In this document: positions 46,119-49,390 of the stretch, in pieces
Numbering within the stretch: position 1 is the first letter of the stretch
How the letters are laid out: every line of letters starts with the position of its first letter
Source: Haloferax mucosum ATCC BAA-1512
Lineage (GTDB): Archaea > Halobacteriota > Halobacteria > Halobacteriales > Haloferacaceae
DNA length: 64,000 nt
Assembly (NCBI RefSeq): GCF_000337815.1
Contig: NZ_AOLN01000010.1
Span: 62,001-126,000, forward strand
Direction of reading: 5' to 3'
The notes under the pieces: model-generated
The model's database searches: none
What the model saw: only the letters and a program-made list of their open reading frames with translations
What the model was told of the DNA's origin: nothing
Made by a program: the position numbers and the translations under genes

Positions 46119-46142
46119 TACTGATTGATCGAATAACAGGTG

Positions 46143-47507
46143 ATGACAGATGACACGGTATTAGGTGACCCACCCGGTCCGGGGGGAATACCGTTCCTTG
46201 GGAATACCCATCAGTTGTTGCGACACGATTTACTCGATTGGATGTCGGATTTGGTCGAGACGCACGGCGATATCGTGCGATTGACCGTCGCAGGAAAGCG
46301 ACTGACAATCGTCGCCGACCCGACTGCTGTGGAAACTATTCTCATCGACGAAAACGAACACTTCGAAAAAGGGGGGTTCCAAAAGCGAGTAACGGCATCG
46401 CTCCTCGGGCAAGGACTCGTTCTTGCGGAAGGCGAACAATGGCGCGAACACAGACACGCGCTCGAACCCGCGTTTCATCCGCGACAAACTGAGCGGTTTG
46501 CCGACGTGATTCAGGGCCAGGCCGCCCGCCAGTTCGAGAGATGGACCGACGGGGACGTTCTGGACTTCGATAGCGAGATGCAGGAGTTGACGTTAGCGAT
46601 AATCTCGGAGGCCCTATTCGACGTCGATACGCGGTCAGCGTCGTTGAATCTCGAAGAGTCGTTCGCACAGGTACTCGCGCACTACGAGCAGGTCGGAGAG
46701 ACGTATATCTACGTCCCGGAGTGGATTCCGACGCCCGGAAACCGGCGGTACAAGCGAGCGCTCGACGAACTGAATTCGGTAGTCGAGAGAATTATCCAGT
46801 CACACGCTCGCGGCGACGGAAACAAAGAGACTGTCGTGTCCAAACTACTCACTCACGGCGGGTCGGATGCGGCGTTCGGACGCGACGAGATACGGGACGA
46901 GATTGTGACGATGCTCGTGGCTGGTCACGAGACGACGGCGCTGGCGCTGACGTTCACGATACACCTTCTCGGAACGACACCATCGGTGTTACAGCGGACA
47001 CGAGCCGAAGTCGATTCGTTCGACGACGACCAGTTTCTCGAACAGGTGCGGAACTCGCAGTGGTTAGAACGCGTCATCGACGAATCACTACGGCTGTATC
47101 CGCCGGCGTACAGCATCTTCCGCGAACCGACGACAGACGTAACGCTCGGAGGCTACAGAATCCCCGAAGGGACGATTGTCGTACTGCCGCAGTGGGTGGT
47201 CCACCGAGACGAGACGGTGTTCGATTCGCCGTCGGAGTTCCGGCCGTCACGGTGGACAGACGAGTTTCGGTCGTCGCTGTCTCCGGGGTCTTACTTCCCG
47301 TTTGCGGCCGGACCGCGTCGGTGCATCGGAGAGCGGTTTGCGAAGTTGGAACTGAAAATCGTTCTCGGGATGTTTCTGCGTGAGTTCGACTTCGAAATCG
47401 TCTCCGAGGCACCGCTCGACGTCACCCCGTCGCTTTCGACGCGACCCGCCGACACGGTCACCGTGAGCGTGCAAAAGCGCTCGGCTAGAGAAGGTACCGA
47501 GCGCTAG
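46143..47507 (+). CDS. Cytochrome P450
   Basis: 454-aa heme monooxygenase of normal length. I-helix oxygen motif LVAGHETTALALTFTIHLLG, K-helix ExxR in ERVIDESLRLYPPAY, the PERF-like region EFRPSRW, and the heme-Cys loop FAAGPRRCIGERFAKLE. N-terminal proline-rich DPPGPGGIPFLGNTHQLL, with no membrane anchor, so soluble. ATG 46143 follows an in-frame GTG at 46140. Redox partner and substrate are unknown; a hydroxylated prenyl product with the neighbouring UbiA enzyme is inference. Confidence 0.93.
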   Translation: MTDDTVLGDPPGPGGIPFLGNTHQLLRHDLLDWMSDLVETHGDIVRLTVAGKRLTIVADPTAVETILIDENEHFEKGGFQKRVTASLLGQGLVLAEGEQWREHRHALEPAFHPRQTERFADVIQGQAARQFERWTDGDVLDFDSEMQELTLAIISEALFDVDTRSASLNLEESFAQVLAHYEQVGETYIYVPEWIPTPGNRRYKRALDELNSVVERIIQSHARGDGNKETVVSKLLTHGGSDAAFGRDEIRDEIVTMLVAGHETTALALTFTIHLLGTTPSVLQRTRAEVDSFDDDQFLEQVRNSQWLERVIDESLRLYPPAYSIFREPTTDVTLGGYRIPEGTIVVLPQWVVHRDETVFDSPSEFRPSRWTDEFRSSLSPGSYFPFAAGPRRCIGERFAKLELKIVLGMFLREFDFEIVSEAPLDVTPSLSTRPADTVTVSVQKRSAREGTER

Positions 47508-47741
47508 GTTCGGACTCGACGCTGGATTGTCGAGTGAGTGGTACAACGACGCTACCCCTATTTCTTCGGATACCAACCCCGAAAGAGAGCGTTGAGTTAC
47601 TGAGCGTGTCGTGGGTGTAAAGCGCTCGAAATGACCGTGTAGGCGGAGAACAAAGATGGAAAGATAGGGAAGACAACAGTTCGTTTTCTACCGTTGCTAT
47701 ATGGTGTGCCCGCGTGCGAGTCTGACAGGAGTTCGAAACCT

Positions 47742-47749
47742 CTTTAATA
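47742..47749 (+). promoter_or_regulatory. TATA box of the distal iron-regulated promoter
   Basis: CTTTAATA lies immediately before the first iron box. A start about 25 nt downstream (~47770) would coincide with the beginning of the structured region at 47769. Confidence 0.45.
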
Positions 47750-47750
47750 C

Positions 47751-47766
47751 TTTAGGCGAGCCTAAA
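47751..47766. promoter_or_regulatory. DtxR-type iron box, distal
   Basis: TTTAGGC-GA-GCCTAAA, a perfect 7-2-7 palindrome. TTAGG-type dyads are the usual sites of iron-dependent DtxR-family repressors (Idr/SirR in haloarchaea). It lies between a TATA box and the presumed transcription start, so Fe2+-bound repressor should block transcription. Confidence 0.75.
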
Positions 47767-47768
47767 AA

Positions 47769-47883
47769 CACGGTTCGGGCTGACGCCTCGACAGCAAATC
47801 GGTGTCGAAGTCGGCGGGACCGTGTAAGCAAACCCAAGGCCCCCGATGGCTTGCGCACAGAGTCGGCACCGACGTGCCGACTC
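47769..47883 (+). ncRNA. Candidate iron-regulated structured RNA
   Basis: No open frame of note, but three nested or successive helices: CACGGTTC (47769-47776) with GGACCGTG (47817-47824); inside it TCGACA (47788-47793) with TGTCGA (47803-47808); then a perfect 10-bp stem GAGTCGGCAC (47860-47869) with GTGCCGACTC (47874-47883) around a 4-nt loop. It starts where transcription from the TATA/iron-box promoter should begin. Either a small RNA made under iron limitation, or a structured leader of the siderophore operon, whose ATG is 140 nt further on. Confidence 0.4.
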
Positions 47884-47946
47884 ACAGGGGGATAGAGGCA
47901 TCTGAATAATATGAATTTTGGTGAATTTTCAATCGGCAGAAAGAAT

Positions 47947-47972
47947 TTTATTGTTTTAGGCCGACCTAAAAC
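47947..47972 (+). promoter_or_regulatory. Proximal promoter and iron box of the siderophore operon
   Basis: TATA-like TTTTATT (47947-47953) is followed by TTTTAGG-CCGA-CCTAAAA (47955-47972), a perfect 7-4-7 dyad with the same TTTAGG-N4-CCTAAA core as the distal box. It is 51 nt before the ATG of dat. Repression by an Fe2+-loaded DtxR-family protein is expected. Confidence 0.75.
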
Positions 47973-48022
47973 TGTATGGCGGACTGCGACACTCAAGCGA
48001 CTAACCGACGGGGGACAAGGCG

Positions 48023-49390
48023 ATGACCGACAACGAAACGCTACTCACCAAGCAGGCCGCGCGTGAGTCGAACGCGCGAAGCTACCCGCGGAACCTTCCG
48101 CACGCCATCAAGGAGGCCAAAGGGGTAACCGTCACCGACATGGACGGTACTGAGTACTACGACTGTCTTGCCGGGGCCGGAACGCTCGCGCTCGGCCACA
48201 ATCATCCAAAAGTGGTCGAAGCGATGGAGACGGTTCTCGCGGAAGACCGGCCGCTCCACACGCTGGACATCACGACGCCGGTCAAAGAGCGATTCGTGGA
48301 CACGCTATTTGGGACGCTTCCCGACGAGTTCTCGGACAACGCGCGGATCCAGTTCTGTAGTCCCGCCGGGACCGACGCTATCGAAGCGGCGATCAAACTG
48401 GTCAAGACCGCCACGGGGAACCGCTCGATGCTCGGCTTTCAGGGCGGCTACCACGGCATGACGAACGGTGCGCTGAGTCTGATGGGCAACACGGACCCGA
48501 AAGCTGACGTTGCCGGACTCATGCCGAACGTCCACCACCTGCCGTATCCCTACGAGTACCGCTGTCCGTTCGGCGTCGGTGGCGACCGGTGCCACAAACT
48601 CGCCAGCCAGTACGTCGAAAACACGCTCGACGACCCCGAAAGCGGCATCACGGACCCCGCCGGAATGGTCGTCGAACTCGTCCAAGGAGAAGGCGGAGCG
48701 ATTCCCGCGGCCGACGAGTGGACCCGCGAGATTCGACGAATGACCCGCGAGCGAGACATCCCGCTCATCGTGGACGAAATCCAGACCGGATTGGGCCGGA
48801 CAGGAGCGCTATACGCGTTCGAACACGCCGATATCGTTCCGGATGCGATTACGCTCTCGAAGGCCGTCGGCGGGTCGCTTCCCCTCTCAGTCGTCGTCTA
48901 CGACGACTCGCTCGACGAGTGGGAACCGGGTGCGCACGCCGGAACGTTCCGTGGGAACCAACTTGCGATGGCCGCCGGTATCGCAACCATCGAACACGTC
49001 GTGGAAAATAATCTCCACGAGCACGCCGAACGCGTCGGCGAACGCCTGCGCGGACACCTCGAATCGACAGCAAACGCTCACGACGCCGTCGGCGACGTTC
49101 GCGGTCGCGGATTGATGCTCGGCGTCGAGATGGTCGACCCGTCCGGAGAACCCGATGCGTGCGGCCACTACCCGGTGCATTCGGACCTCGCGGATGCCGT
49201 TCGGGCGGCCTGCTTCGAGCGCGGTCTCATCGTGGAACTGGGCGGGCGGCACAGTAGCGTCGTCCGGTTCCTCCCGCCGCTTATCGTCTCGCAGAACGAC
49301 GTTGACGAAATCGGTCGCATCTTCGACGACGCCGTCGAAGCCGCGGTCGAATCGGTGCGTCACGGACGGTCACAGGAGGTGCTCGCGTGA
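48023..49390 (+). CDS. dat: Diaminobutyrate--2-oxoglutarate aminotransferase
   Basis: 455-aa class III PLP aminotransferase that makes L-2,4-diaminobutyrate from aspartate semialdehyde. Blocks: YYDCLAGAGTLALGHNHP, FCSPAGTDAIEAAIKLVKTA, FQGGYHGMTNGALSLMGN, LIVDEIQTGLGRTGALYAFE, and the PLP-lysine loop ITLSKAVGGSLPLSVVVYD. First gene of the siderophore operon and the RhbA equivalent. It ends in a GTGA overlap with the decarboxylase gene. Confidence 0.93.
   Translation: MTDNETLLTKQAARESNARSYPRNLPHAIKEAKGVTVTDMDGTEYYDCLAGAGTLALGHNHPKVVEAMETVLAEDRPLHTLDITTPVKERFVDTLFGTLPDEFSDNARIQFCSPAGTDAIEAAIKLVKTATGNRSMLGFQGGYHGMTNGALSLMGNTDPKADVAGLMPNVHHLPYPYEYRCPFGVGGDRCHKLASQYVENTLDDPESGITDPAGMVVELVQGEGGAIPAADEWTREIRRMTRERDIPLIVDEIQTGLGRTGALYAFEHADIVPDAITLSKAVGGSLPLSVVVYDDSLDEWEPGAHAGTFRGNQLAMAAGIATIEHVVENNLHEHAERVGERLRGHLESTANAHDAVGDVRGRGLMLGVEMVDPSGEPDACGHYPVHSDLADAVRAACFERGLIVELGGRHSSVVRFLPPLIVSQNDVDEIGRIFDDAVEAAVESVRHGRSQEVLA

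Follow-up and report, generated by a model that had tools for sequence, protein, structure and literature searches.

Two perfect DtxR-type iron boxes stand ahead of the siderophore operon of Haloferax mucosum ATCC BAA-1512, and the question they raise is what the distal one is for, given that the first gene of the operon has an iron promoter of its own. Both lie in the gap between a cytochrome P450 gene and dat, within the 64,000-nucleotide stretch of DNA analysed here (the window, whose numbering is used throughout). The operon begins with dat and continues with genes for a PLP decarboxylase, two IucA/IucC-type synthetases, an acetyltransferase and a lysine/ornithine monooxygenase. The genome holds 36 sites with at most one mismatch vs 3 for a reversed control pattern, and within the window these two are the only DtxR-type boxes even at two mismatches allowed (0.6 such sites expected by chance). 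The landmarks of the locus are as follows.

46140-47507, cytochrome P450 gene, left flank of the studied gap
47728-47750, plus strand, span of the distal promoter, with the BRE CGAAAC at 47733-47738 and the TATA box TTTAATA at 47743-47749, from sequence and a position weight matrix (PWM)
47751-47766, strandless, distal DtxR-type iron box, a perfect palindrome (TTTAGGCGAGCCTAAA), from a pattern search
47767-47773, plus strand, predicted start region of the distal transcript, placed from leaderless iron genes
47955-47970, strandless, proximal DtxR-type iron box, serving dat and conserved among haloarchaea
48023-49390, plus strand, dat, diaminobutyrate aminotransferase (Pfam Aminotran_3; orthologues annotated as diaminobutyrate--2-oxoglutarate transaminase)

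The initial annotation of this DNA had assigned dat a TATA element and iron box of its own, and these are indeed present, the box at 47955-47970, and conserved: more than 30 haloarchaeal records show an iron box some 70-120 nt ahead of dat. It had also described a TATA element followed by a perfect palindrome at 47751-47766, which holds, with the TATA box at 47743-47749. The sequence upstream of the distal box, GAGTTCGAAACCTCTTTAATAC, contains the BRE CGAAAC, and both BRE and TATA box sit at the usual spacing ahead of the box; the published haloarchaeal motifs are 'CGAAA' for the BRE and 'TTWT' for the TATA element (PMC4983044). We built a matrix of iron promoters (PWM) from 54 other iron promoters, and it scored the distal promoter at 6.6 bits on the plus strand vs -13.6 bits when reversed, and the dat promoter at 15.4 bits. 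Divergent use of the distal box for the minus strand was rejected because there is no TATA element on that side. Judged by its sequence, the distal element is a well-formed iron promoter pointing right toward dat. Comparison with relatives further indicates that it is an extra promoter beside the conserved one, since the proximal promoter already serves dat and the upstream DNA is unalignable in relatives. Alignability begins at about 47946, at the proximal promoter, and everything from there back to the P450 gene cannot be aligned, with Dat itself 83-85% identical to Dat of the H. massiliensis/gibbonsii group (nearest, 85%). A former product of the distal promoter was sought by way of the neighbouring P450 gene, without success: the best relatives of that gene are 53-54% identical, and none of the three examined has an iron box downstream.

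Start codons of the leaderless iron genes of this genome fall mostly 2-7 nt past their box, and the distal transcript is therefore predicted to start at about 47768-47770. The TTTAGGNNNNCCTAAA palindrome sits between the TATA box and this predicted start, 254 nt from the dat start and 204 bp from the proximal box. A tally compiled by hand from tables set the distal box apart. Among the 21 perfect boxes of the genome, 17 are within 27 nt of a start codon on one of the strands and three are members of pairs spaced 36 bp apart in which the mate has the start codon, which leaves the distal box alone without a near start codon and without a 36-bp partner. An automatic version of the test in five Haloferax genomes found two orphans among 87 perfect boxes, and no other orphan iron promoter was found near dat in the named haloarchaeal records examined. 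Paired iron boxes as such are frequent; they lie 34-36 bp apart with a TATA element between them (loci L165, L167, L168 and L075-L101) and occur before dat in most genera and also before substrate-binding-protein genes. The second box at dat is missing in volcanii-group Haloferax and in H. mucosum.

The distal promoter also lacks a coding gene of its own. The absence of a credible open frame, claimed at the outset, was borne out on both strands by lengths and GC3: the longest plus-strand ATG frame downstream of the distal box has 19 codons (47847-47906), and a 99-aa frame on the minus strand was rejected as a gene on its GC3 (0.48 vs 0.77 for dat).

Folding of the predicted transcript gave two domains joined by an unpaired linker.

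47767-47825, plus strand, 5' domain, one irregular 58-nt hairpin of 9 + 6 + 6 bp, by folding
47768-47776/47817-47825, plus strand, outer stem of 9 bp including one G-U, by folding
47826-47839, plus strand, unpaired linker (AAGCAAACCCAAGG), by folding
47840-47892, plus strand, 3' domain, a CCCCC/GGGGG stem around a small hairpin and a 10-bp stem, by folding
47860-47869/47874-47883, plus strand, perfect terminal stem of 10 bp, enclosed by the CCCCC/GGGGG stem, by folding

Much of the architecture first proposed for this region reappeared. The perfect 10-bp terminal stem was found and the outer stem opens where the transcript is predicted to start; the outer stem itself, proposed at 8 bp, came out at 9 bp with its G-U pair, and the 6-bp inner stem was joined by another of 6 bp. 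The 5' domain (47767-47825) had z=-5.1 and the span 47768-47897 z=-4.65, with 0 of 1000 dinucleotide shuffles as extreme in either case, and linker plus 3' domain (47826-47897) had z=-3.3. As a control, 640 windows of 131 nt across the 64 kb had a mean of -0.31, a standard deviation of 1.11 and a minimum of -4.13. The excess is biased to the plus strand (z up to -4.6 vs about -2 on the minus strand). When 19 iron promoters of this genome were compared, the distal region stood at -4.6 (131 nt) and -5.3 (60 nt), and the remaining 18 ranged from -1.4 to +2.4 and from -1.9 to +1.9, respectively; these ranks are to be read with the caveat that the region was chosen beforehand because it looked structured. 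Across five Haloferax genomes, 174 box-orientations yielded one similar z, for a segment spanning a second box and coding sequence. Equally extreme hairpins number about six per 64 kb on both strands, and one of them starts at the predicted start here. The 10-bp hairpin alone was discarded as evidence (0.8 expected by chance in 64 kb). The strongest short hairpin of the window is elsewhere, at 2085-2144 on the plus strand (z=-6.3). As modelled, the distal transcript has exceptionally strong predicted structure, beginning with its very first nucleotide.

Our best reading is that the distal promoter drives a structured non-coding RNA, about 130-180 nt long, that is repressed by iron and specific to this lineage, a view that sequence and folding suggest and that we hold tentatively, with slightly less than even confidence. 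When iron is present, a DtxR-family repressor (Idr/SirR type) would sit on 47751-47766, between TATA box and start, and block initiation, as the box implies. When iron is scarce, transcription would begin at about 47768-47770, and the RNA is predicted to close on itself from its first nucleotide into the 58-nt hairpin, followed by the second stem-loop domain. Its 3' end would probably fall within the T-rich DNA that precedes the dat box.

47907-47954, plus strand, AT-rich stretch with TTTT runs, also the promoter of dat, possible weak termination zone

GC content drops to 28% over 47898-47954, and T stretches terminate transcription in H. volcanii (PMC7237163). Between the distal promoter and dat there is no strong T5 terminator; only T4 runs occur, the first of them more than 30 nt past the last stem. 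Speculatively, the RNA might then regulate the iron response, either by using its linker and loops to act in trans or by acting on the dat mRNA next to it.

This reading is favoured by the orphan well-formed promoter, the outlier fold, its plus-strand bias, the lack of a credible frame and the 254-nt distance to dat. In H. volcanii, 395 intergenic start sites were reported as sRNA candidates (PMC4983044). Weighing against it are the absence of homologues, the missing T5 terminator, a linker complement that is not enriched, the turnover of such promoters within the genus, and the pre-selection of the spot. The original proposal that the distal promoter has a product of its own is therefore upheld in part: the promoter is of the iron type, has no start codon to serve and precedes structured sequence, but the corresponding sequences in three other Haloferax are unrelated and unstructured and no target emerged. 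A more specific version, in which the RNA is an archaeal DtxR-type-repressed, iron-sparing sRNA that evolved recently from a promoter unit driving leaderless micro-ORFs elsewhere in the genus, seems rather unlikely to us, and a function like that of Fur-repressed RyhB is no more than an analogy.

Searches for relatives of the element returned little. BLAST against 171 genomes of the family gave short chance matches only, a covariance model built from the single sequence found only itself in 169 genomes, and Rfam had no match at gathering or relaxed thresholds. An origin from a mobile element or phage was rejected, with no copy elsewhere in the genome or in plasmids, phages and viral contigs. 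That no homologues were found counts only weakly against a function because non-coding DNA is already unalignable at 85% Dat identity, and the element is best read, from these comparisons, as specific to one Haloferax lineage. A search for an antisense seed in the linker found its complement at nine genome sites vs 28 for the control, and no sRNA target was found by way of the linker complement.

Given this lack of homologues, the distal iron promoters of other Haloferax are the closest comparison. A distal perfect iron box with a TATA-like element is present in H. massiliensis, H. sulfurifontis and H. denitrificans, on the same strand and 290-310 nt upstream of the box at dat. All three boxes have a leaderless ATG at box+3, opening a frame of about 36 codons in two genomes and 24 in one. 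No structure shared with these units was found; their sequences are unrelated and show no excess structure (z after the distal box of +0.9, +0.7 and -1.3). No distal iron box was found before dat in H. prahovense, H. gibbonsii, Haloferax sp. Q22, H. elongans or H. larsenii. H. sulfurifontis and H. denitrificans are identical over the latter half of the distal micro-ORF and the next bases, with flanks that have diverged (L070 4622, L071 4629 and L074 4623). Distal iron promoters of a second family are found in four genomes (G002, G007, G008 and G012), some 250 nt upstream of a gene for a substrate-binding protein. This unit (L228 621-876; L248 603-849) has a leaderless ATG in G002; G012 carries ATC in its place, and G004 has a shortened version. 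By sequence comparison, distal iron promoters recur in Haloferax and are readily gained, lost or shortened, with a dispensable start codon, which makes them compatible both with fast turnover of small RNAs and with decay of micro-genes.

The latter process gives the strongest alternative, namely that the distal promoter once drove a leaderless micro-gene or iron gene whose ATG has become ACG at 47770, and that its present transcript is functionless. The triplet 47770-47772 is ACG at box+3, where leaderless iron genes here commonly have ATG, and the frame from it stays open for 41 codons; the leaderless ATG at the equivalent place in the three relatives, and the ATG, ATC and shortened forms of the substrate-binding-protein unit (G002, G012 and G004), fit such a history. 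However, a decayed gene would not be expected to top 19 iron promoter regions in structure, triplets one change away from ATG often arise by chance, and the GC3 of the frame is 0.60 vs 0.77 for dat. The 41-aa product initiated at ACG had chance-level matches only and was rejected. We consider this explanation doubtful.

Alternatively, the distal element could be a second dat promoter, whose structured 254-nt leader lowers or tunes dat translation and possibly acts as a switch. Two features at the dat start bear on this.

47976-48026, plus strand, leaderless micro-ORF of 16 codons (MADCDTQATNRRGTRR), whose TGA overlaps the dat ATG
48009-48014, plus strand, CGGGGG, Shine-Dalgarno-like element of dat, complementary to CCCCCG at 47840-47845

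The distal promoter is on the same strand as dat, with no strong terminator in between, and the CCCCCG of the 3' domain can pair either with its own GGGGG or with the CGGGGG of dat, hence the possible switch. In a transcript of 47768-48080, CCCCCG at 47840-47845 is predicted to pair with 48009-48014 at a probability of about 0.97 and with the local GGGGG at 0.02, and in RNA initiated at the proximal promoter the Shine-Dalgarno-like element is predicted to be about half open. Nevertheless, complementarity over 6 nt is weak evidence in sequence so rich in G+C, and the local stem forms earlier in transcription. A leader of 254 nt would exceed the longest one measured in haloarchaea, given as 145 nt (PMC4983044), and dat is served by the proximal promoter alone in nearly all other haloarchaea examined. 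Because of this length and the conserved promoter of dat, an independent RNA is favoured over a leader, which we regard as unlikely. It is very improbable that the distal box is an operator only, one that yields no product and acts from afar to strengthen the repression of dat by iron: two boxes do precede one iron operon, and pairs are common at haloarchaeal dat and substrate-binding genes, but their usual spacing is 34-36 bp vs 204 bp here, and the distal box has its own correctly placed BRE and TATA box.

If the distal transcript is a non-coding RNA, its closest likeness is MrsI (ncRv11846) of Mycobacterium tuberculosis, an iron-starvation sRNA of about 100 nt whose promoter has a site for IdeR, a DtxR-family repressor (PMC8628891). 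The likeness lies in the DtxR-family site in the promoter; MrsI differs in being bacterial and in having an established seed and targets, whereas the H. mucosum candidate is a prediction from sequence and folding. With sRNAs of the RyhB and IsrR type, a distal transcript would share an iron-repressed promoter and a short structured RNA, but those are bacterial and have mRNA targets that were shown or predicted. RyhB is repressed by Fur. The intergenic sRNAs of H. volcanii start between genes, some 250 nt from the next one, behind a BRE and a TATA box, as the candidate is predicted to do; none is tied to an iron box in the literature searched, and the H. mucosum sequence is absent from the other Haloferax searched. 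The distal promoters of H. massiliensis, H. sulfurifontis and H. denitrificans have the same layout of box, TATA element and strand, and differ by their leaderless ATG and the unrelated, unstructured sequence after it. Full-text literature searches, of incomplete coverage and with matches judged by title or abstract, found no archaeal sRNA with an iron box. Iron-repressed sRNAs are known from several bacteria, and a defined archaeal candidate with a predicted start, a predicted fold and an iron box makes the question testable. The extra iron promoters that recur 200-310 nt ahead of Haloferax iron genes may be a source of new regulatory RNAs and micro-proteins.

The short frame before dat recurs as well. 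Most haloarchaea examined (L070-L101) have a leaderless ORF of 16-26 codons whose ATG lies 2-8 nt past the dat iron box. Its stop is at or overlaps the dat start (ATGA, GTGA or TGATG), and a Shine-Dalgarno-like element lies inside it. Judged by its sequence, the frame seems to be a conserved, leaderless micro-cistron that is coupled to the translation of dat. The ATG after the dat box shares the reading frame of dat in Haloarcula, Halobaculum and Halegenticoccus.
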